DNA of 64,000 bases from NCBI GenBank assembly GCA_007693945.1, contig RECP01000068.1:1-64000 (forward strand). Direction: 5' to 3'. The notes under the pieces are model-generated. The model searched no databases, was not told the DNA's origin, and saw only the letters and a program-made list of their open reading frames with translations. The translations under genes and the position numbers were made by a program. Positions within the stretch are counted from its first letter, which is position 1. The number at the start of each line of letters is the position of its first letter. Shown here piece by piece: positions 1-12,626 of the stretch. This DNA is from Spirochaetaceae bacterium. GTDB taxonomy: Bacteria; Spirochaetota; Spirochaetia; DSM-27196; PWMO01.

Positions 1-2976
1 ACCGCGAGCTTTGCCCCCGGGGCCGGGAACTCGACGCTGCTTGATACGCACGCCAATGACTTTGCCACCGTGGCGGTCAGTAACGGGGTGAACGCGCGCT
101 TTCAGGATGCCAACACGATCGTGCTGGGGGCAATCACGGTGAGCGGAGCGCTCGAGGTGAGCTCGGGCGGAGATATCACGCAGAGCGCGGCGGTGACGGT
201 CGGGGGAACCGCAAACATCAACGCCGGGAACGGTCAGATTGACCTGGCCGGAGTCAACAACGATTTTGGCGGTGTGGTGACGCTGTCCAACGTCGGTGCG
301 GCCAACGGCATCACGATCAGGGATGTCGGCAATCTGAGTCTTGCCGGCATCAGCGCTCCACAGAACCTGACGCTGCAGGCCGGCGCAACAATCAGCCAGC
401 TGGGGGTGTTCGACGTAGCCGGCGATTTCACGATTGCCGGCGGAACGCTCGATACGGGCGGTAACGCGGTCCTCGTGGGGGGGAACTGGTTGAACAGCGG
501 GACCTTCCAGGCGGCCGGCGGCACGGTGACGTTCAACGGCGGGGTCATCCAGACGGTCAACTCCGGAGGCACCCCCGCGGGGCGCTTCAACAACGTAACC
601 GTCAGCGGCGGTGGAACCGTGCTGCGGGTTGCCGGCAGCGACTTCTACGTGGACGGTATCCTTACGGTTGCGGCGACAACTGTGGATCTTGCCGATCGGG
701 CCTTTGTGATCGATGAGCTCGCAAACAACGGTACGCTCGAGCTTGACGGTACGCAGTCCCAGACAATCAACAATCCGGATACCGCCTCCGGTCTGATCCG
801 CTACAAGGGCGCCATCGGCGGCACGCTGGGACTCTCCCAGTTTCACGATCTGGAAGTAAACCAGGCTGCACGCACCTTTACTCTGACACAGGACATCCGC
901 GTGCACCGTGACCTGATTATCACTCCAAACACAACATTGGATTCCGGAGGGTTCGACATAGCGGTCGGCCGACACTGGCGCAATCTGAACGGAAGCTTTG
1001 TTCCCGGAACCGGGACGGTGCTGTTCTTTGGCCCCGGTGGCATAGAGGTTCTGGGGCACAACGATTTCTACAACTTCTTCGCCACCATCGATGACCCGGA
1101 CCCGGATAACCGAGTCGCCACCGGCATCACCATCGAGTTTCAGGCCGCACGCGTGCAACGGGTGCTCACCGGGGGGACGTTTCGCGTCACCGGTGGTGCT
1201 GCGGGTTGGGACGGCATGGACCCGCCTGGAGGAACCGATCACATCACCCTCACCTCCACATCCCCAGGGCTGAATCGTGATACCGACTACTGGCGCTTTG
1301 ACCTTGACCCCGATCCTTCGACGTCGTTGGAACTTCTGTATGTCTACGTTGACTACAGCTGGGCCACGCCGTTCAGCATACCGATCCCTCCGGATACCGC
1401 GGTGTCGGACAGAACCGACGGTTGGACGAGCTTCATAAACGTTCTGACTGCCGAGACGGTGGATTTTTTCGGTACCGGCAAGATCGACCGCATTCTGATG
1501 ACCAGCGAGGTCGCGCTGAACATGGACTTCTCCGACGTGCCGATTGAGGTGGAGGGGTACGAACCGGTACCAAGCGGCATCCCGCCGCATCCTGCGACCC
1601 CGTTCTCGCCCGGGCCGGTGCAGACGCAGTTCTTCATCCACATCCAGCCGCGTGCGCACCTCGATACATTTTCGCGGCCACGCTGGAGGTTTGTGCGGCA
1701 GGAGACTCATTCGTTGCGTGACCAGGCTACCGGCAACTTCCTGGTAGTCATGGATGATGGGGCCGACTACGTGGAACTGGTCAACGGCGACGTCTGGGTT
1801 CGCCCGCTCGATGGGGCCGCGCCGGTTATTGGTTATACGCTGGCGGTTGCGGGACGCAATCAGGTCTTTGTGCACTTCTCCGAGCCGGTACAGCAAACCG
1901 GTGGTGGATCACTGACTGACGCCAACTTCGGCTACTCGGTGGGCGGTGTAAGTGTCACTGCGGCGGTTCCGGCACCGGGGGGTGTACTGGACCAGGATTG
2001 GCTGCTGACGCTCTCGGCTCCGGTGACCCCCGAGCACATCATCGATCAGGAAACCGTTCTGGTAAGCAATGTTGAGGACCTGGCTGAGGACTACACGCCG
2101 GATCCGGCCCCCAATGCGTTTGTGGCTCGGCCGGTCTGGCCGGCGGGACGGCACAGGGTTTCTGATCTGCTGCTCATACCGCCTGATCTGGAGTTGGTGA
2201 CCCCCGTGCTGGCGCGCGAGATCGGCATCCAGCGCGACGCGACGCGCGGCGGTATCGGGCTGATCCGCGACTTCGACGGGACGGCCTATCTGCAGCCGCG
2301 CGAGATCCTGCTGCAGGTGTTTGCCTCCGATCCCCCGATCAACCCGGCGACGCTGCGGCTGTTCTACGATTCGGCGGTCTCTCCGGCTCTGGTTCGCAAC
2401 AGACTCTGGTTGCCCGAGTTCAACCAGAGTCACTTCAGCGGTATCGTGCCGCTTCCCAACGCCGGCGGTCCCGGTGAAGCCGCCGGTGTTCCCGTTGCGG
2501 GCGGGCTGCGCGAGTACCAGTTGCTCGCGGATGATCCCAGAATCCGCAGCGGAGTAGCACTCGACTTCTTTCTGCGGGTAGTGGCAGGACCTCCGCCGCT
2601 GTACGCCGCGCGCGTCTTCAATCCCGGCTCGCCGAGCTGGTTCCGCAACGTTCGGCCGTTCTCGTTCAATATTGCCGAGGTGCTTCGTCAGCGCAGCTCG
2701 GTGAGCATCCTCAACAACGTGATCAATCCGGAGGCCGGCGAGCGCGCCTATCTGCACTACGAACTCGCGCGCGCCGGTACGGTCAGCATCAACGTCTTCA
2801 ACCTGGGCGGAGATCTCGTGGATGTTATCCATCGCGGCCGTCTGACCGCTGGTGAGCACTCTACCAGCTGGGACGGCACCAACCGCCAGGGACGCATAGT
2901 GGCGCGCGGCATATACTTCATCAGGATACGTGGTCCGGACATCGACGAGTTCCGCAAAGTGATGGTGGTGAAATGA
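1..2976 (+). CDS. Large beta-rich surface/secreted protein, 5' truncated, with FlgD-like C-terminal domain
   Basis: The reading frame is already open at base 1, so the true start lies upstream; 991 residues are visible. The first 350 or so residues are Gly/Asn/Thr/Val-rich with recurrent short strands (GNW, GGT, NNV), as in right-handed beta-helix or filamentous-haemagglutinin-like passengers. The middle resembles bacterial Ig-like modules. The last 75 residues (about 917-991) match the FlgD Ig-like / gliding-type sorting domain pattern: GTVSINVFNLGG, then SWDGTNRQG, then ARGIYFIRI and a short basic end. No autotransporter barrel is seen. Its stop overlaps the next gene's start (ATGA), so the two are co-translated. 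Likely an exported surface protein; ligand unknown. Confidence 0.75.
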   Translation, partial: TASFAPGAGNSTLLDTHANDFATVAVSNGVNARFQDANTIVLGAITVSGALEVSSGGDITQSAAVTVGGTANINAGNGQIDLAGVNNDFGGVVTLSNVGAANGITIRDVGNLSLAGISAPQNLTLQAGATISQLGVFDVAGDFTIAGGTLDTGGNAVLVGGNWLNSGTFQAAGGTVTFNGGVIQTVNSGGTPAGRFNNVTVSGGGTVLRVAGSDFYVDGILTVAATTVDLADRAFVIDELANNGTLELDGTQSQTINNPDTASGLIRYKGAIGGTLGLSQFHDLEVNQAARTFTLTQDIRVHRDLIITPNTTLDSGGFDIAVGRHWRNLNGSFVPGTGTVLFFGPGGIEVLGHNDFYNFFATIDDPDPDNRVATGITIEFQAARVQRVLTGGTFRVTGGAAGWDGMDPPGGTDHITLTSTSPGLNRDTDYWRFDLDPDPSTSLELLYVYVDYSWATPFSIPIPPDTAVSDRTDGWTSFINVLTAETVDFFGTGKIDRILMTSEVALNMDFSDVPIEVEGYEPVPSGIPPHPATPFSPGPVQTQFFIHIQPRAHLDTFSRPRWRFVRQETHSLRDQATGNFLVVMDDGADYVELVNGDVWVRPLDGAAPVIGYTLAVAGRNQVFVHFSEPVQQTGGGSLTDANFGYSVGGVSVTAAVPAPGGVLDQDWLLTLSAPVTPEHIIDQETVLVSNVEDLAEDYTPDPAPNAFVARPVWPAGRHRVSDLLLIPPDLELVTPVLAREIGIQRDATRGGIGLIRDFDGTAYLQPREILLQVFASDPPINPATLRLFYDSAVSPALVRNRLWLPEFNQSHFSGIVPLPNAGGPGEAAGVPVAGGLREYQLLADDPRIRSGVALDFFLRVVAGPPPLYAARVFNPGSPSWFRNVRPFSFNIAEVLRQRSSVSILNNVINPEAGERAYLHYELARAGTVSINVFNLGGDLVDVIHRGRLTAGEHSTSWDGTNRQGRIVARGIYFIRIRGPDIDEFRKVMVVK

Positions 2977-3437
2977 AGCAAGGCAAGAGATTCCAGCCGG
3001 TGGGGCTTGTTGCCGCGCTGGCTGCTGTGATTGCAGCCGCGGGGTTGCCGGTCATGTTGCCCGGCTGCGACGTCAACGGGGCGCTGCGTGAGGATTTCTC
3101 CTATCGTCTGACGGTCACTATTGCGGCAGCCGAGGGGGTCATACTTGATTCGCCGGCGCCGCTGGTGCGGATTCTCGATCCGCCGGTTGATCTGCCGGAA
3201 ACCGACGGCGTGTACGTGCTGGAGGAAGACCCTGATTATGCCGAGCCGCCGCGGGTTATCGAGATCCGGACGGGCAGCAGCGCGGCGCTGGTGGACGATC
3301 AGTTCTTCTCGGTTACCGTCACCTATCGCGAGCTCGGCACGCTCCCGGTTGCAAAACGCACCCTGTTCCGCGCGCGTCGCGAAGCAGGCGACGGCGCTGT
3401 CGCGGAGATCTGGACCCAGGTCGTGGTGCCGCAGTAA
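2973..3437 (+). CDS. Small predicted lipoprotein
   Basis: A 154-residue protein with a basic N-terminus, a hydrophobic stretch at about residues 10-28 and a lipobox-like LPGC at about 29-32, so it should be a lipid-anchored envelope protein. The remainder has no family I recognise; it is rich in short beta-type segments. It starts inside the stop codon of the large surface protein upstream (ATGA overlap), which suggests the two are made together and perhaps function together on the cell surface. No ribosome site is needed beyond coupling. The product is called from the signal sequence and context only. Confidence 0.7.
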   Translation: MKQGKRFQPVGLVAALAAVIAAAGLPVMLPGCDVNGALREDFSYRLTVTIAAAEGVILDSPAPLVRILDPPVDLPETDGVYVLEEDPDYAEPPRVIEIRTGSSAALVDDQFFSVTVTYRELGTLPVAKRTLFRARREAGDGAVAEIWTQVVVPQ

Positions 3438-3465
3438 CACCTCGCCGGTAACCTGGCTGATCCTG

Positions 3466-3918
3466 CTACAAAACCTCCAGGACTTCCTTTGCGTGTTCGG
3501 CCGGACTGACCTTGGGAAAGGCCTTGATCACCGTGCCGTTTTCATCGATCACAAAGGTTGAGCGCAGGATGCCTTCGTAGGTCTTGCCGTACATCTTACG
3601 CTCACCCCAGGCTCCGAAGGCCTGGATGACCTGCTTGTCCGGATCGCTCAACAGATCAAACGGCAGCTGGTACTTGCTGCGGAAGCTCGTATGGGCAGCC
3701 TGCGTGTCGGCGCTGATTCCGAGTACCACCGCACCCCTGTCGAGGATTGCCTGGTGATTATCGCGGAAGCTGCACGCCTCCTTCGTGCATCCCGGCGTGT
3801 CGTCCTTGGGGTAGAAGTAGACAACGACCTTGCGTCCGGCAAAGTCCGACAGCGAAACCTCGGTGCCGTCCTGATTCCTGAGTGTGAATGCTGGAGCCTG
3901 TGTGCCCTCGGTGATCAT
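3466..3918 (-). CDS. bcp: Thioredoxin-dependent thiol peroxidase (Bcp/PrxQ peroxiredoxin)
   Basis: A 150-residue peroxiredoxin of normal length for the Bcp family, which reduces hydroperoxides with thioredoxin as electron donor in the cytoplasm. The active-site segment YPKDDTPGCTKEACSFRD at about residues 36-53 carries the peroxidatic Cys in TPGCT and a second Cys five residues on, the pattern of atypical two-Cys Bcp enzymes. The conserved downstream RSTFVID segment is also present. The start ATG is preceded by GGAGG at good spacing. It is divergent from the glycosyltransferase gene and convergent with the lipoprotein gene. Confidence 0.95.
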   Translation of the reverse strand: MITEGTQAPAFTLRNQDGTEVSLSDFAGRKVVVYFYPKDDTPGCTKEACSFRDNHQAILDRGAVVLGISADTQAAHTSFRSKYQLPFDLLSDPDKQVIQAFGAWGERKMYGKTYEGILRSTFVIDENGTVIKAFPKVSPAEHAKEVLEVL

Positions 3919-4032
3919 CTGTTCCTCCGATCTCGATTGTGATATGTAACAAAATACCGTCGTCGGGCCGCTCTGGAAAGCAGAATCCGGTGGTGCCGAT
4001 TCTGTTGTTTGCAGCGTTATAGTGGAGGTTCG

Positions 4033-4881
4033 ATGAAAGACTCGGTCTCAGTGGTAATTCCGGTCTACAACCGTTTCGGCATGCTGTTGCAGGCGCTTGA
4101 AAGCGTATGCGGGCAGACGGCGGGCCCGCGGGAGATTGTGGTGGTCGATGACGGGTCGCGCGATATCGATGCCGGCCGCCTGACGGCGCTGCGGGCGCTT
4201 GATCCGCGTATCGATTACCTGCGCATCGCGCATTGCGGCATGCCCGGGGCGGTTCGCAACGCCGGTGCTGCGCGCTGCAGTGGTGAGTGGATTGCCCTGC
4301 TGGACTGCGACGATATCTGGCACCCGGACAAGCTGGCGCTGCAGCTGGAATGCGCCGCGGCCAACCCGTCGGCGCCGCTGGTCCACACTCGCGAGCGCTG
4401 GCTGCGAGACGGCCGCGAGATCCCGCAGACGGGCCAGAGGCATCTTCGCACTGGTTGGGTCTTCGCGGACGCGCTCGTGAAGTGCACAATCGGGCCCTCG
4501 ACGGCAATTATGCGCCGTGCGCTGTACAGCAGACTCGGCGGTTTCCGCAGCGACATGGAGGTTGCCGAGGATTACGAGTTCTGGCTGCGCGTAACGGCGC
4601 GTTATCCGGTTGCCTACGTCGACCGGCCGCTGGTGGACAAGCGCGCCGGTCACGGTGATCAGCTCTCCGAGAAACACGGTCAGATCGAGCGCTTCCGGAT
4701 CGAGGGACTGCTGCGGCTCGTGGAGCAGAACTACTTCAGTTTCGACTCCGGGCTGCAGGCGCTCGCGCGCGCCGAGTTGGCTCGCAAGTGCGCCATCTAT
4801 GCCGCGGGCGCCGCCAAACGGGGACGTCACGCGGAGGCCGATCGGTTCCGCGCACTCGCCCGTGGCTACAGCGCGCGCTGA
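4033..4881 (+). CDS. Family 2 glycosyltransferase
   Basis: A 282-residue GT-A fold transferase. The N-terminal VSVVIPVYNR, the VVVDDGSRD nucleotide-sugar site and the metal-binding DCDD near residue 97 are typical of GT2 enzymes, and VAEDYEFWLR fits the usual acceptor-site ED motif. No membrane segment is seen, so it probably acts at the inner face of the membrane on a lipid or glycan acceptor; donor and acceptor are unknown. I chose the ATG at 4033 because GGAGG lies at 4024-4028; an upstream in-frame TTG at 4009 has no site. Its 3' end overlaps the convergent gene by 16 bases. Confidence 0.88.
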   Translation: MKDSVSVVIPVYNRFGMLLQALESVCGQTAGPREIVVVDDGSRDIDAGRLTALRALDPRIDYLRIAHCGMPGAVRNAGAARCSGEWIALLDCDDIWHPDKLALQLECAAANPSAPLVHTRERWLRDGREIPQTGQRHLRTGWVFADALVKCTIGPSTAIMRRALYSRLGGFRSDMEVAEDYEFWLRVTARYPVAYVDRPLVDKRAGHGDQLSEKHGQIERFRIEGLLRLVEQNYFSFDSGLQALARAELARKCAIYAAGAAKRGRHAEADRFRALARGYSAR

Positions 4882-6023
4882 TAGACGCGGTGAGTCTTGT
4901 AGACGCGGCCGCCCAGATCACGCATGGCAGCCAGCATCAGCTCCGTAGTTTCGGCAATCTGGGTCATCTCGGCGCTGAGTACACCGCGCTCGCGCAGGCT
5001 GCGCTCGATGGTAGAGAACAGCAGCGCCGTTCCACCCTGGTTGCGGAACTCGGGCAGAATACCGACCCCGTTGATGATGAACGTGCGCGTGCGCTTCCTG
5101 GCGCGCAGAATGCGGCACAGACTCAGCGGGTTCAGCCGGCCGCCGGCGCGCTGCAGCGCACGCGTGACGTCGGGAAACCCGAGGATGAAGCCGACTATCT
5201 GGTCGTCACGCCGCATCACCTTGATCAGGCCGGGATCGGTAACCAGCAGCAGGTCATCGGTCAGCTCTTTCAGTTCGCGTTCGGTCAGCGGTACAAACTC
5301 ATCGTGGTCTTCCCACGATTGGTTGTAGATGCGGCCGATCTCCGCCGCCGCGGCGCGAAACTCGCGCCGGTTACGGAACTGCGGCACACGGAAGCGGTTG
5401 CGTTTCATCACCAGTTCCATGACCCTTTGCTGCTTCTGTGACGGTGTGAACTGTGCGGCTATCAGTTCGGCCGAGACGAAATCCTTGTATTTGCTGAAGC
5501 CGGCACCCTCGATCAGCGGGCGGTAGTAGCTGAACGTGTAGTTCATCATGGTCATGGCCGCTGGCCTTTCAAAGCCGTCGATCAGGATACCGGCCCCGGT
5601 AAAGCCGGAGAAACCTTGCGGGCCAATGAGGCGCGTCAGGCCGCGCTTGTGGGCCCACTGCGCGGCAAAATCAAAGACTGCCGTCGCCACCTGAGGATCA
5701 TTTTCGGTGTCAAAGAAGTAGAAGCGCGCGTCACGCTTGCTGCGGTACTGGTTGAAGCGCCGGGGCTCCAGAAGCGCAAACCGGGCGACGGTACGGCAGC
5801 CTGTACCGCTGCCGCGCCGTACCAGGAAACACGCACCGTCGGAGTGCTCGAAGAACGGGTGTTCCGCGGCGATGATGCGCCGCAGTCCGCGGTCAAACCA
5901 CGGTACCCAGCAGGGGCAGTTGCGGTAGAGCCGTTTGGGAAAGTCGCAGAACTCGCGAACCGCGCCGCGCTCGGATATCGAAACCTGACGGATATCGATT
6001 TGGCCTTCTGATGAGCCTTTCAT
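4866..6023 (-). CDS. GNAT-like N-acetyltransferase family protein (YghO-like)
   Basis: A 385-residue protein resembling the YghO-type group of large GNAT-fold proteins found in many environmental bacteria. Visible hallmarks are RQVSISERGAVREFCDFP at the start, a central GPQGFSGF segment, YYRPLIEGAGFSKYKD, and a C-terminal GNAT-like IINGVGILPEFRNQGGTALL, which looks like the acetyl-CoA pyrophosphate loop. The substrate is not known for the family. The ATG at 6023 is preferred over an ORF start 42 bases upstream because homology-like sequence begins soon after it, though no strong ribosome site is visible. It overlaps the convergent glycosyltransferase end. Confidence 0.75.
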   Translation of the reverse strand: MKGSSEGQIDIRQVSISERGAVREFCDFPKRLYRNCPCWVPWFDRGLRRIIAAEHPFFEHSDGACFLVRRGSGTGCRTVARFALLEPRRFNQYRSKRDARFYFFDTENDPQVATAVFDFAAQWAHKRGLTRLIGPQGFSGFTGAGILIDGFERPAAMTMMNYTFSYYRPLIEGAGFSKYKDFVSAELIAAQFTPSQKQQRVMELVMKRNRFRVPQFRNRREFRAAAAEIGRIYNQSWEDHDEFVPLTERELKELTDDLLLVTDPGLIKVMRRDDQIVGFILGFPDVTRALQRAGGRLNPLSLCRILRARKRTRTFIINGVGILPEFRNQGGTALLFSTIERSLRERGVLSAEMTQIAETTELMLAAMRDLGGRVYKTHRVYQRAL

Positions 6024-7829: not shown

Positions 7830-10544
7830 TTACTTCTGCGTCAGGTTGAACGCACCGTCCCAGTCGGCGGGCGGCTGCTTCTTGAGGAACTCGCGGCAAC
7901 GCTTGATGTACACCTGCGACGGGCCGTCCCCGGGATGCGCCTTGAGCGCCTGTTCAAACCGCTTGCCCGCGGCGTTCCAGTCCCGTTGCTCGAACAGGCG
8001 CAGTCCGTCGTGGTAGATGTCGAGTACTTCTCTGGTGCGCTCGTCGAGGTGACCGGACTCCTCGACCAGTTCAAACAGGCGCACCGGCTCAGTGACGCCA
8101 ACCACCCGCACACGGTCCATCATGCGGAACGCAAAGTCATCGCCGGCCTCCGCGCGCGTCATTTCGCTGGCCAGCAGCCAGGTTCCGTACTGTTTGTTGA
8201 CGCCCTCCAGGCGGGCGGCAAGGTTTACCGCGTGGCCCATCATCGTGTAGTCCATCTTCTGCGCCGTGCCCATGTTGCCGACAACCATCTCCCCGGTGTT
8301 GATGCCGATGCGCGTCAGAAGCGGCGCCGGACTCAAGCCCTGCTCCAGCACCTGTTCGTTGAGCCGGGCCTCGGCGCGCTTCATCAGTACCGCCGCGCGG
8401 CAGGCACGCGCTGCGTGGTCCTGGTAGGATATCGGTGCCCCGAAGAACGAGATGATGGCGTCACCCTCGTACTTGTCTATGGTACCGCGCAGGTCGAGGA
8501 TGATGTTGCTCATCTCGGTGAGATAGCTGTTCAGCAGCCTGACCAGGTCGGTTGGATCGAGCTGTTCTGAAATGCCGGAAAAACCCTTGACGTCGGTGAA
8601 GAACGCCGTCAAGTGCTTCTTCTCGCCGCCCAGCTTGAGCTTGGTCGGATCGTCGAGCAGCTCGTTGATCACATCGGTTGAGAGATAGTGCCCGAAGGCG
8701 CTGCGGATAAAGCTGCGTTCGTGGGCGGTCTGCAGGAACTTGACCAGCGTCAGCACCAGAAAGCTCAGGAACACCGTCAGCGACGGGGTGATCAGCGGCA
8801 GGTAGTTGCCGGTATAGACGAAAAACAGCGCTCCGGCGGCGGAAATCAGCAGCACGAACAGCAGGCCGACGATAATCGACCACAGTGGCTCGAGCCTGCG
8901 CACCAGGAATGTAACCAACAGCGCCAGCACAAAGGCCGCGGCAACCGAGTACCACGGCGACAGCACGGTCAGGAAGCGCCGCTGCAGGATGGTGTTGGCC
9001 ACCGAGGCGTGCGTCCCGACGTTCATGTACTGCTCTTCAAACGGGTTTACTCCGATATCGGTGGTACCGGTGCCGGTGAAGCCGATAAACGCGAACGCCC
9101 CGGGCAGCTCTTGCCGCAGCGTCTCGCGTGACTGCATCAGCAGGCGGTAATTGGCGCGTGCTGCCGCAAACAGCTCCGGCACCTCGTCCAGCAGCGGGGC
9201 ATAGTCCTCACGCAGGCCGGCCGGCAGGTCCTCAACCGCCAGGATGCGGTTAATCTCGTCCAGGATGGCCTGCTCGGTGGTGTCATCCAGGAAACGTCCG
9301 GTCTCCACAAGCATCATATCCCGGACAAAGCGGTACTCCTCGATCAGGTCGCGGTCGGCACCCTCCATGACCTCTTCCTTTATCTGCTCGGCGTAGTCGT
9401 AGGCCTGCAAAATGTCGAACTCGGCATCGTAGAACGAAAGATAGCCGGCATCAGCCATCGCGCGCAGGTTGTGCAGCAGGTTCTCCTCCAGCCGCGTGTT
9501 GCGCGTTAACTCCCAGAACGAGACGTGGCGGAAGCTGTCGTCAAAGGTAGCCCGCGGCCAGTTGATCAGAATGCGGCTGTTGTCGACCATCGGAATGCGC
9601 ACGGTGTGAACCTCGCCGTCGGGATACTCGGCGTCAATCAGCACCAGCTGCCCTTCGCGAACCTGCAGCTCGGGTTGCCCCAGCCAGTGCAGCAGCGGTG
9701 CGAGCGCCAGCTGGCCAAAGAAGTCTCCGTTGTGTTCGAACAGCAGCTCGACTCTGCGCCTTACGCCGTCACGGTCAATGACCACGTTGGGGAATCCCGC
9801 ACCGATACCGTGGCGGATGATGGGCAAGATGGTCGGGCGGATGCCGCCTGCGCTGCGGAACGGAACGTTGGTGTCCAGTTCGGTGGTGGTGTTCGGCACG
9901 GTGAATCGTTCACGGGTGTACCGCAGCAGCTCTTCGGACACCGCCGGGTCGGTCTGCGGCAGCATGTTGACCGTGAAGAAGGTCCTGCCGTTGAAACGTG
10001 CCGCCTTGCCGAAGTATTCGTCATTATCGCGCGCGATGTCGCGCACGGTAGCCAGCAGCCGATCCTGCGTCTGGTCGGTGATGTCGGCCAGATCGAATAC
10101 GAAGTCCTGCGCGTCTTCAACCGAGATGGCTCCGGATGCCAGCGCTGAGAACAGATCGAGAATACTCTGCCGGATTCCGGCGAACTCTCGGGTGAACAGA
10201 CCCGGGATCTCGCGTTGCAGCAGTTCCGAGTCCACGCCGAGCGGGCTTCGCTCGACATACTCGATATCCAGAATGGCGTATCCCGTCTCGAACTCCCGCA
10301 TCAGAATCAGCCCGTCGGCGACCACGTCACGGCTCCACGGCCAGATGCCAACGTTGGCAATAGCGTCGTCGTCGATATTGAGCAGCACCAGCGACTGGTG
10401 CTGCTCAATCGGCGGCTTGACGTGCAGCAGCGTGTCGTACAACCGCATCTCCATCACATCAAGCGCTCCCAGCGCGTTGAGCAGCGCGAATAGCGCCGCT
10501 ATGACCAGGGGAACAACGAAGAGTATCCGCTCGCCTTTTTTCAT
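7830..10544 (-). CDS. CHASE2-domain adenylate/guanylate cyclase
   Basis: A 904-residue membrane receptor cyclase. An N-terminal membrane segment is followed by a long extracytoplasmic CHASE2 sensor (VLLNIDDDAIANVGIWPW is its signature start), then about three membrane segments near residues 520-605, a class III cyclase domain and one TPR-like repeat at the end. The cyclase is intact: metal-binding Asp in FFTDVKGFS and in KYEGDAIISFFG, and DYTMMGHAVNLAARLE with the transition-state Asn and Arg. The DYT arrangement resembles the class IIIb type, so cAMP is the likelier product. Start ATG follows GGGAGG. It is divergent from a second cyclase gene. Confidence 0.93.
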   Translation of the reverse strand: MKKGERILFVVPLVIAALFALLNALGALDVMEMRLYDTLLHVKPPIEQHQSLVLLNIDDDAIANVGIWPWSRDVVADGLILMREFETGYAILDIEYVERSPLGVDSELLQREIPGLFTREFAGIRQSILDLFSALASGAISVEDAQDFVFDLADITDQTQDRLLATVRDIARDNDEYFGKAARFNGRTFFTVNMLPQTDPAVSEELLRYTRERFTVPNTTTELDTNVPFRSAGGIRPTILPIIRHGIGAGFPNVVIDRDGVRRRVELLFEHNGDFFGQLALAPLLHWLGQPELQVREGQLVLIDAEYPDGEVHTVRIPMVDNSRILINWPRATFDDSFRHVSFWELTRNTRLEENLLHNLRAMADAGYLSFYDAEFDILQAYDYAEQIKEEVMEGADRDLIEEYRFVRDMMLVETGRFLDDTTEQAILDEINRILAVEDLPAGLREDYAPLLDEVPELFAAARANYRLLMQSRETLRQELPGAFAFIGFTGTGTTDIGVNPFEEQYMNVGTHASVANTILQRRFLTVLSPWYSVAAAFVLALLVTFLVRRLEPLWSIIVGLLFVLLISAAGALFFVYTGNYLPLITPSLTVFLSFLVLTLVKFLQTAHERSFIRSAFGHYLSTDVINELLDDPTKLKLGGEKKHLTAFFTDVKGFSGISEQLDPTDLVRLLNSYLTEMSNIILDLRGTIDKYEGDAIISFFGAPISYQDHAARACRAAVLMKRAEARLNEQVLEQGLSPAPLLTRIGINTGEMVVGNMGTAQKMDYTMMGHAVNLAARLEGVNKQYGTWLLASEMTRAEAGDDFAFRMMDRVRVVGVTEPVRLFELVEESGHLDERTREVLDIYHDGLRLFEQRDWNAAGKRFEQALKAHPGDGPSQVYIKRCREFLKKQPPADWDGAFNLTQK

Positions 10545-10676
10545 GCGGCCTCCCGGACGGGTTTGTGTTGCATGATCATACTACAGTCTGGCACATTTTT
10601 CTCAATTGTCCAGCACCCCGGTAATATATCGTTCACTATTCTCATGATCGCGCAAAACATGATACGGTACAAGCAT

Positions 10677-11600
10677 ATGCGTGTGCGTTCCCGTCTGCGC
10701 AACATCCTGATCCGCGCGCTCACTCACTCGATGGATGTCCAGACCATGGTGGAAATCGCGCGCCGCATAATCGGCAACGAGTACGATCTGCACAAGCGCT
10801 GCGGCTTTCCCGAGAGCGTTCCAATTCCTGATCACGACGCTGCACGCCAGATCGTGATCGACTTGATTGACGCTGCGCTGGCGCTGCCGTTTGTGACGCT
10901 GCTGGTGTCGATCGACCGCAACGGCTTTGTCGGTCGCAAGCTGCACATTCACCGCATCGACGATATTCTTGGTGAGATGCTGGAGCTCGGTCTGACCTAC
11001 GATCCCGAGAACCAGATCTTTGTCGAAAACGCCAACCGTCAGCAGACGCCCAACTGGGGTGTGATTCGCGAGGGTGATGTGCACAGTTTTGCCTTTCTGC
11101 GTTTCGATGTGGTGGGCAACTCACGGCTTGTGCGCAAGTACAATGAAGAGACGGTGATGCAGGCCTACGGGGATCTGCGCCGACTGATCCAGGCGATCCT
11201 CTTCCGGCGGAACGGCCGGCTCTGGTCGTGGGAGGGGGACGGCGGTCTGGCGGCGTTCTACACCGACGATGTAAACGCCGCAGCCGTATACACCGGGATG
11301 GAGATTCTGCGCGAGCTCTATCTCTACAACCGGCTCAGATGTCCGCTGGAGGAGCCGATTCGGCTGCGGTTGGCGGTACACAGCGGTCCTAGTGAATATC
11401 GCAACAATGTGGACGATATTGGTAGTATGGCAATCAAGAAAGTGTACCATATCGAGTCCAACCTGACGCTGCCGGATACGCTGACGGTTTCGGACACGGT
11501 GTACTTCAATCTCGATCCGTTACTGGAATCGTGGTTCAGTCCGCTGGCCGGCAACGGCGATTCAACCTGTTATCGTTACGCGCTGGCGTTCGAGAAGTAG
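10677..11600 (+). CDS. Class III nucleotide cyclase-like protein, catalytic type
   Basis: About 307 residues: an N-terminal helical region of roughly 130 residues and a C-terminal cyclase-like domain. Both metal-binding acidic positions are kept, in FLRFDVVGNS and in WEGDGGLAAF, and LRLAVHSGPSEY matches the usual GIHTG strand. The late VNLAAR-type segment is replaced by SMAIKKVYHIESN, so base specificity and even activity are uncertain. Several starts are possible; ATG 10677 is chosen because charged sequence begins there, but ATG 10644 is equally open. The next gene, a degenerate paralogue, starts 9 bases after its stop, so they form an operon. Confidence 0.75.
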   Translation: MRVRSRLRNILIRALTHSMDVQTMVEIARRIIGNEYDLHKRCGFPESVPIPDHDAARQIVIDLIDAALALPFVTLLVSIDRNGFVGRKLHIHRIDDILGEMLELGLTYDPENQIFVENANRQQTPNWGVIREGDVHSFAFLRFDVVGNSRLVRKYNEETVMQAYGDLRRLIQAILFRRNGRLWSWEGDGGLAAFYTDDVNAAAVYTGMEILRELYLYNRLRCPLEEPIRLRLAVHSGPSEYRNNVDDIGSMAIKKVYHIESNLTLPDTLTVSDTVYFNLDPLLESWFSPLAGNGDSTCYRYALAFEK

Positions 11601-11609
11601 TCGCAGACG

Positions 11610-12626
11610 ATGGAAGTGGTGGTCTTTTCGGACAGCAACACGATGCGCAGCTGTTTCGGCGCGGTTGAACGCAGCCGCAAGCACGCTGTGCGCTACGAGT
11701 CGCTGCAGGACCTGTCGCAGTGGTTACGCAACGGTCACCACCGGGGGCTGGTCTACGTGGACGTGACCGGCATGAGCGCCGCGGCGCGCACGCGCCTGCT
11801 GCGACGGCTGTCGCGGCACGATCGCGTGGTCTACAGCGTAATCGATCCCCGCAATCAGGTCATTGATCCGGCCGCTCTGCTGCGCAACGGCGCCGTGGAC
11901 TACGTCAACCGGTCGGTGTACTCGGCCGGCATCACCTGCAAACGGGTTGACGAGATCAGCGCGTTTGTCAAGAGCGCCCATCCCGATCTGCCGGCTCCGG
12001 CGGCCGCCAAAGAAGCCGGTCCCTTGCCCGGCAGCGCTGACGGCCGCCGCCTGATTGTTTCCGGTGAAGACTGGAACCGGGTGCAGCTGTCCAGGGAGTA
12101 CACCTTCCTGATGCTTTTCGCCGAGCTCGACAACGCCTTTGACTACACCAATCGCACCAGCGAACGCTACACCACGTCGCTGGTCAATTCGTTCCAGCGC
12201 CTGCTTGAGGAGGCGACTGCAGCCTACCACGGCCGGGTTTGGATGTGGCGTGAATTCGGCGGCATTATGCTGTTTCCCTTCAGTGGCGGGTCGTGCCCGG
12301 CGGTTCTAGCGTGCGTGCGCATGATCCTCAGCCGACCGCTTGACAACATCGAGAAGTTCGATCTCAAGACAGGCTTGTCCTACCGGTTGTCGCTGCATCT
12401 GGGCAACACCGTATACCGGCCCAAGGGTGATACCGGCTACATCGTCTCGGACTCGGTCAACTTCATCCACCATCTGGGACAAAGATTCACCATGCCGGGC
12501 AACTTCACGCTTACCGGTCCCGTCTACCACATGACGGACAAGAGTCTGCGCCCGCTGTTCAAGCCCGCCGGCGAGTTCGAAGGGCGCTCGGTCTACCGAA
12601 TGCGGTTGCCGGTCAAGCCTAAGTGA
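11610..12626 (+). CDS. Receiver-like domain plus degenerate cyclase domain (pseudocyclase)
   Basis: A 338-residue protein. Residues 1-125 look like a response-regulator-type alpha/beta fold (VVVFSDSNTMRSCFGAVE, GLVYVDVTG, NGAVDYVNRSV), but not a canonical phosphorylated receiver. Residues about 165-335 align by eye along their whole length with the cyclase domain of the gene just upstream: FLMLFAELDN, WMWREFGGIML, YRLSLHLGNTVY, SDSVNFIHHLG. The second metal Asp position (EGDGG in the partner) reads REFGG here, so catalysis is unlikely. I infer a regulatory or heterodimer partner of the upstream cyclase. Its 3' end overlaps the convergent monooxygenase gene by 8 bases. Confidence 0.7.
   Translation: MEVVVFSDSNTMRSCFGAVERSRKHAVRYESLQDLSQWLRNGHHRGLVYVDVTGMSAAARTRLLRRLSRHDRVVYSVIDPRNQVIDPAALLRNGAVDYVNRSVYSAGITCKRVDEISAFVKSAHPDLPAPAAAKEAGPLPGSADGRRLIVSGEDWNRVQLSREYTFLMLFAELDNAFDYTNRTSERYTTSLVNSFQRLLEEATAAYHGRVWMWREFGGIMLFPFSGGSCPAVLACVRMILSRPLDNIEKFDLKTGLSYRLSLHLGNTVYRPKGDTGYIVSDSVNFIHHLGQRFTMPGNFTLTGPVYHMTDKSLRPLFKPAGEFEGRSVYRMRLPVKPK

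Follow-up and report, generated by a model that had tools for sequence, protein, structure and literature searches.

Does the tandem gene pair at 10677 to 12626 of this DNA encode a working nucleotidyl cyclase and a dead copy of it, or do the two products share out one active site between them? The window, by which we mean the whole stretch of 64,000 nucleotides that was analysed (contig RECP01000068.1 of a Spirochaetaceae bacterium), carries the two genes, called A and B here, with the following features:

10677..11600, + strand: gene A, 307 aa; a helical N-terminal domain (about aa 1-120) and a cyclase domain with both metal-binding Asp and without the transition-state Asn/Arg
11106..11108, + strand: codon of A Asp144, first metal-binding Asp; Asp in 113/113 A domains
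11238..11240, + strand: codon of A Asp188 (in EGDGG), second metal-binding Asp; Asp in 113/113 A domains
11436..11450, + strand: A Lys254 to His258, the positions of the transition-state Asn and Arg; Asn in 5/113 A domains
11598..11609, + strand: TAG stop codon of A and the 9-base gap after it; B is in the same frame as A
11610..12626, + strand: gene B, 338 aa; a receiver-like N-terminal domain, a low-confidence linker and a cyclase domain without both metal-binding Asp and with Asn and His
12123..12125, + strand: codon of B Glu172, first metal position; Asp in 2/109 B domains
12255..12257, + strand: codon of B Phe216 (in REFGG), second metal position; Asp in 17/109 B domains, both Asp in 0/109
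12459..12461, + strand: codon of B Asn284, transition-state Asn; Asn in 106/106 readable B domains, 3/109 being gapped there
12471..12473, + strand: codon of B His288, at the position of the transition-state Arg; His in 105/106 readable B domains and in 19/20 single-gene paralogues (C)

Two diverged class III cyclase domains

The start Met of A at 10677 is supported by the homologue alignments, which begin there. As an earlier note on this DNA had claimed, the cyclase domains of A and B align with each other (180 residues, 22% identity, BLASTP E 2e-12), and the second metal site, WEGDGG in A against WREFGG in B, differs just as that note had quoted it (EGDGG, REFGG). At the first metal site, LRFDVVG in A against LFAELDN in B, a Glu of B is aligned to the Asp of A, so that this site is lost in B too. 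The transition-state segment reads AIKKVYH in A and SVNFIHH in B, where the Asn is kept; in ordinary members of the class, for example the neighbouring CHASE2 cyclase, it reads VNLAARLE.

Both domains are diverged class III cyclase domains that Pfam misses: A and B of the window match no Pfam family even at an E-value of 10, and NCBIfam names neither. Among their homologues the cyclase family PF00211 is matched by 6 of 28 A proteins (best E 0.0063), by none of 28 B proteins, and, at E up to 1, by all 15 of 15 single-gene paralogues C; the C protein of the window's own genome (L085) scores 26.4 bits and so lies above the family cut-off of 21.9 bits. A single-sequence phmmer search of solved structures gives A a weak match to class III cyclases (E 0.0013) and with B reached no cyclase. 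A profile built from the 28 A proteins finds the Silicibacter cyclase 3mr7 at E 2.3e-8, and one built from the 28 B proteins finds the cyclase Ma1120 at E 0.011-0.015 over residues 159-262 or so of B. A thus belongs to class III by fold and homology, and B does so on weaker evidence; of the residues that define the class, A has the two metal-binding Asp per chain (113/113 domains) and lacks the transition-state Asn and Arg, and B lacks the former and has the Asn with a His for the Arg.

Distribution of catalytic residues over the two chains

Residues were counted in a MAFFT alignment of 242 distinct domains from 303 hits (identical or contained sequences merged, three B stubs without the domain dropped), in which classes A, B and C had been assigned by profile and adjacency, independently of the catalytic residues; the rows share descent, and the counts are thus not independent trials. 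The first and the second metal position are each Asp in 113/113 A domains; the Asn position of A holds Asn in 5 and Lys or Arg in 81 of the 113, and its Arg position holds Glu or Asp in 65, Arg in 3 and His in 3, the window protein being one of these last. In the 109 B domains the first metal position is mostly Glu, with Asp in 2, and the second is Asp in 17; the two never occur together, so that B homologues with both Asp, which the earlier note had said would tell against its idea of a heterodimer, number 0/109. The Asn is kept in 106/106 readable B rows, and His stands at the Arg position in 105/106. When only rows readable at all four positions are taken, A has both Asp in 112/112 and neither Asn nor His/Arg in 101/112, and the Asn of B is accompanied by His or Arg in 104/105. 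All four residues (Asp, Asp, Asn, His) occur together in 19 of 20 C chains, the lone exception, a short row from L189, being placed among the ordinary cyclases by the tree. Behind the first Asp, 94/113 A and 14/20 C domains retain the loop D...N[ST], as against 0/109 B domains. The B domain otherwise diverges fast, yet its Asn and His belong to the four best-conserved columns; the position of the base-specifying Lys shows no conservation in A, B or C.

Metal-binding and transition-state residues are thus split in complementary fashion over two chains in more than 100 A-B pairs, and a pattern held over that many homologous pairs is more than chance. The picture of A as the working copy and B as the dead one has to be given up, since both are half-enzymes: without the transition-state Asn and His/Arg, a homodimer of A should not work either. 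What stands of the earlier proposal is its comparison with a C1/C2-like heterodimer, for which the complementary losses conserved over more than 100 pairs argue. A homodimer is the expected form of C, in which all four positions lie in one chain.

On this pattern, A and B probably make up an obligately heterodimeric class III nucleotidyl cyclase, as its two subunits, and form one composite active site between them. A would supply the two metal-binding Asp and the phosphate/metal loop, and B would supply the Asn together with a His in place of the usual Arg, orienting the ribose and stabilising the transition state; the second, pseudo-symmetric pocket, where the lost metal site of B would face the lost Asn/Arg site of A, would be dead and may be regulatory. 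We infer from the sequences that A and B would pair physically and turn over a nucleotide to cAMP, cGMP or another product, under control exerted via their unlike N-terminal domains. Since the base-specifying Lys is not conserved and the Arg is a His, catalysis is not assured, and for the first of these reasons the product cannot be named from sequence.

The same two features would suit a nucleotide-binding sensor without catalysis, in which A-B would hold an NTP at the composite site and pass a signal to a partner, and the fold matches include 6yii, by its title a class III-like ATP-binding protein with two domains from Pseudomonas aeruginosa. We consider such a sensor unlikely: the metal Asp of A and the Asn of B are kept essentially without exception, the single-gene C proteins keep the full set with the same His (19/20), and published class III-like families vary at the transition-state positions, one of them being given as His, His in a passage of PMC4886424. 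Still less probable is that B is a decaying pseudoenzyme which modulates A, with A working alone by another mechanism. The metal positions of B do vary freely, and the Lys or Arg at the Asn position of A (81/113) and the Glu or Asp at its Arg position (65/113) might point to new chemistry in A; decay, however, would not spare exactly the Asn (106/106) and the His (105/106 readable) of B, and the pattern in A is non-uniform, unlike that expected of new catalytic residues.

Structure prediction bears on the arrangement of the heterodimer that we favour. An artificial A-B chain was obtained by reading through the single in-frame TAG (NCBI table 27), and two AlphaFold2 single-chain models were made. 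Model 1 comprises A and B (649 aa; 62 rows, of which 18 were fused, 22 A and 22 B; pLDDT 92.0, pTM 0.73), and model 2 comprises A 121-307 and B (529 aa; 108 rows, of which 20 were fused, 44 A and 44 B; pLDDT 92.6, pTM 0.86); the unpaired rows of model 2 come from 44 of the 47 pairs that are not in frame, L142, L174 and L176 being left out. In both models A and B have the same class III order of strands and helices, and A superposes on Ma1120 with Z 22.7-22.9 and an rmsd of 1.8. The best Foldseek matches of the models are the two-domain cyclases sAC and AC9, in lists filled by the A cyclase domain that hardly probe the N-terminal domains. The head-to-tail wreath was not seen in either model under this single-chain protocol with mostly unpaired rows, two-domain fits to AC9 and AC5 giving about 21 A rmsd and those to sAC, AC9 and AC5 together ranging roughly from 21 to 36 A; the pTM of 0.86 indicates that the program is confident of some predicted arrangement other than the wreath. 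The misfit, which bears on the other condition that the earlier note had set against its idea (a model with no shared dimer face), is an unfavourable but weak result against a wreath dimer, the test being weak because the chains were single, only 17-19 paired rows stood beside the window's and the receiver domain lay in between. Covariation between A and B, scored as mutual information with APC over 106 pairs (effective number about 71), reached a maximal z of 6.3 against 5.0-6.8 in five shuffles, so that it does not rise above shuffled pairings and counts against the heterodimer rather than for it.

Pairing, neighbourhood and descent of the genes

A search with A in 100 related genomes gave matches in 53, and in a sample of the phylum 97 of 392 genomes matched at 1e-10, single-gene paralogues being included in both figures; a pattern-based scan of 84,980 species returned 178 relatives, and the best 80 of the 178 loci are all from Spirochaetota. 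The gene pair, for which the earlier note had suggested looking in other spirochaetes, was found there in more than 100 distinct homologous pairs. In the first set, B lies directly downstream of A on the same strand at 43/43 loci, with estimated gaps of -8 to +24 nt; the second set, of 66 pairs, includes two wider gaps (about 90 nt at L118 and about 70 nt at L151). For all loci together, B follows immediately after 106 of 113 distinct A domains, a figure that counts as B by position four partners scoring slightly better with the C profile (L190, L193, L194 and the second of L195). Of the seven A domains without a partner, five lie on contigs ending at or in B (L105, L149, L150, L173, L175), and a partial B is visible at the contig end in L105, L173 and L175; the other two are at L094 and L136. 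The two genes are likely to be translationally coupled. Against an obligate pair stands one A in a finished genome, at L136, without an adjoining B.

Several loci depart from the usual layout. The finished genome CP070841 has the second A copy (L136) alone and another copy (L130) with its B. At L094 (G079:C49, 6411-9072) weak A-like and B-like genes are divergent rather than tandem, and the A-like gene keeps both metal Asp and has an Asn at the transition-state position as well. The B frame beside an A at L178 (6917-7878) is in two pieces, one of which is counted among the 106 partners; L099 is a B at a contig end; and L195 has two A-B pairs (2876-5082 and 9048-10894) within one 14-kb stretch. 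Long frames over B in L110/L185 and L198, which could suggest that B is a fusion protein, run under A in another frame and were rejected, and none of the A/B loci was confirmed as a viral contig.

Two features of the window lie directly upstream of A:

7830..10544, - strand: CHASE2-type membrane cyclase with ordinary catalytic motifs; a divergent, genus-limited neighbour outside the conserved unit
10545..10676, no strand: intergenic region of 132 bases separating A from the CHASE2 cyclase; a promoter scan gave a single weak match here, on the minus strand

The divergent position of this cyclase, 132 bases from A, agrees with the earlier description. The further suggestion, that one short region switches both the CHASE2 gene and the pair, does not hold in general: the CHASE2 gene neighbours A at only 6 of 105 loci, 84 of the 105 extending 2 kb or more upstream of the A frame. 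The six are that of the window and five others from its genus, and in two cases a small open frame intervenes. Within this genus the pair and the CHASE2 gene may share a divergent switch, but the latter is not part of the A-B system. The own genome has nine PF00211 matches, the C paralogue and the CHASE2 enzyme among them, and A could in principle pair with one of these while B acted as a separate regulator, but this is the least probable reading of all and a very remote one, given that constant adjacency is seen for B only (106/113 A; the CHASE2 gene at 6/105 loci) and that pairing of A with C would give no reason for the conservation of Asn and His in B.

At the 105 loci no neighbouring gene holds a constant position in more than a handful of cases. 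A conserved third partner was considered and rejected: the largest neighbour cluster (A, B and C excluded) is a loose single-linkage set of 38 ORFs from 29/105 loci in scattered places, 8 of its ORFs lying directly after B, and the next clusters cover 12, 11 and 9 loci. Related proteins of about 660-790 aa follow B on the same strand at 8 loci (L120:7940-10048, L133, L134, L141, L146, L160, L164 and L166); the one at L120:7940-10048, the sole one scanned of the eight, has a histidine-kinase-type ATPase domain.

The heterodimer that we favour would have arisen by duplication of a C-type homodimeric cyclase, with the receiver-like domain replacing the helical one in B. Two trees, both of spirochaete rows with no eukaryotic ones, bear on this. 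The first, a quick search with SH-aLRT values only, holds 104 domains (38 of 113 A, 38 of 109 B, 20 C and 8 ordinary), and the second 76 rows (25 A, 25 B, 19 C and 7 ordinary, with L008, L189_C2 and the second L195 pair left out). In the first tree the ordinary cyclases of the same genome are separate (SH-aLRT 100) and C is paraphyletic at the base, with A and B inside it; an unresolved fork joins A and B with three C rows. A is one clade in both trees (SH-aLRT 90 and 89); B is one clade in the first (81) and not in the second, where it needs two changes. In the first tree the same subgroups, three in number with 8, 4 and 26 rows, are found in both A and B, as expected for a pair inherited together.

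On these trees A and B descend from within C, itself a diverged class III subfamily in Spirochaetota, and one duplication of a C-type homodimeric cyclase followed by complementary loss would be the simplest account. The nesting of A and B in spirochaete C, apart from the ordinary cyclases of their own genome, suggests a duplication separate from the eukaryotic one. We lean towards an obligate heterodimer of separately encoded half-enzymes, widespread in Spirochaetota and evolved independently of eukaryotic C1/C2 and alpha/beta, with a His-based transition-state site and with C as its pre-split state. Neither tree supports A and B as sister clades, yet in the second an A+B clade is not rejected either (p-AU 0.583, likelihood 2.31 higher). 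A natural one-gene reference, with all catalytic positions but a His for the Arg, is the single-gene C of the window's own genome (L085:6954-7937, C93).

N-terminal domains and relation to known cyclases

A phosphorylatable receiver has an acidic pair after strand 1, an Asp after strand 3, a Thr or Ser after strand 4 and a Lys after strand 5. For residues 2-103 of B the best PDB match of the 28-protein profile is a response regulator (E 0.0015), and the AlphaFold2 model has the alternating beta/alpha order there. The earlier description of this N-terminus as receiver-like is thus weakly borne out as regards fold, and most of the phosphorylation residues are missing: the Asp after strand 3 is present in 25/28 proteins, the acidic pair is mostly missing (Asp in 11/28 at residue 8 and in 3/28 at residue 9), the Thr/Ser place is Asp79 in 28/28, and Lys occurs at residue 101 in 11/28 and is not constant. 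The domain is at most a pseudo-receiver. A has nearly its whole length in common with C, the helical N-terminal domain included, and B carries the receiver-like domain instead. We do not propose a death-like or effector-associated nature for the A N-terminus (10677-11040 of the window), the matches among 45 proteins being isolated and insignificant (EAD7 1/45, E 0.015; bDLD3 1/45, E 0.026; GAAD 1/45, E 0.12) and unrelated families such as Ivy scoring equally (3/45, E 0.018). Cyclase domains making cNMP are known beside such adaptor domains in conflict systems, according to a passage of PMC8195603.

The division of labour in A-B resembles that of the mammalian enzymes, in which, according to an excerpt of PMC4174876, the Asps come from C1 and the transition-state residues from C2: A would take the role of C1 and B that of C2, and by analogy with the transmembrane adenylyl cyclases one active and one dead pocket would be expected. 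A-B differs from C1/C2 in consisting of two separate bacterial genes with different N-terminal domains and no matched membrane domains, in the His at the Arg position, in the base-specifying Lys, which is not conserved, and in that the models did not reproduce the wreath dimer. In soluble guanylate cyclase, as a passage of PMC3591389 has it, neither homodimer is active and the residues are spread over two subunits; its alpha and beta chains are, like A and B, homologous subunits sharing out the catalytic residues, but A and B have no Pfam sensor domain, have a helical (A) and a receiver-like (B) N-terminus, and are far from it in sequence.

Closer at hand are the C cyclases, of the same subfamily as A and with the same helical N-terminal domain; they have the Asn and His in common with B but hold all four positions in one chain. 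The nearest solved structures by profile or fold, Ma1120 and Silicibacter 3mr7, are likewise one gene and one chain each, whereas A and B have one half each of the catalytic residues. A gives a weak match to a profile of Pycsar PycC (E 2.8e-6, some 70 residues around the metal sites) and C an equally weak one (1.5e-6); the A-B loci differ from Pycsar in that B has no match and in that any one neighbouring gene keeps the same position in a few of them at most.

A recent review (PMC9552081) describes the class III adenylyl cyclases of bacteria as monomers that form homodimers, and places the duplication behind the pseudoheterodimer of the membrane adenylyl cyclases in early eukaryotes. The matches listed in licensed PMC text, a scope outside which the subscription literature lies, include no bacterial heterodimeric class III pair. 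The fold and the division of labour are already known; new is the place in which they occur, with one-gene relatives still present, and B and C are unusual in having a His for the Arg. If A-B works as proposed, bacteria would have taken a C1/C2-like step independently, and one phylum, indeed one and the same genome, would contain the split heterodimer as well as the full homodimer type; with both states surviving, the evolution of obligate heterodimers by complementary loss would be directly testable. The analysis also brings to light a cyclase pair in the window that escapes both Pfam and NCBIfam. The window's own genome holds 18 matches to cNMP-binding domains, so that possible cyclic nucleotide receptors are at hand.
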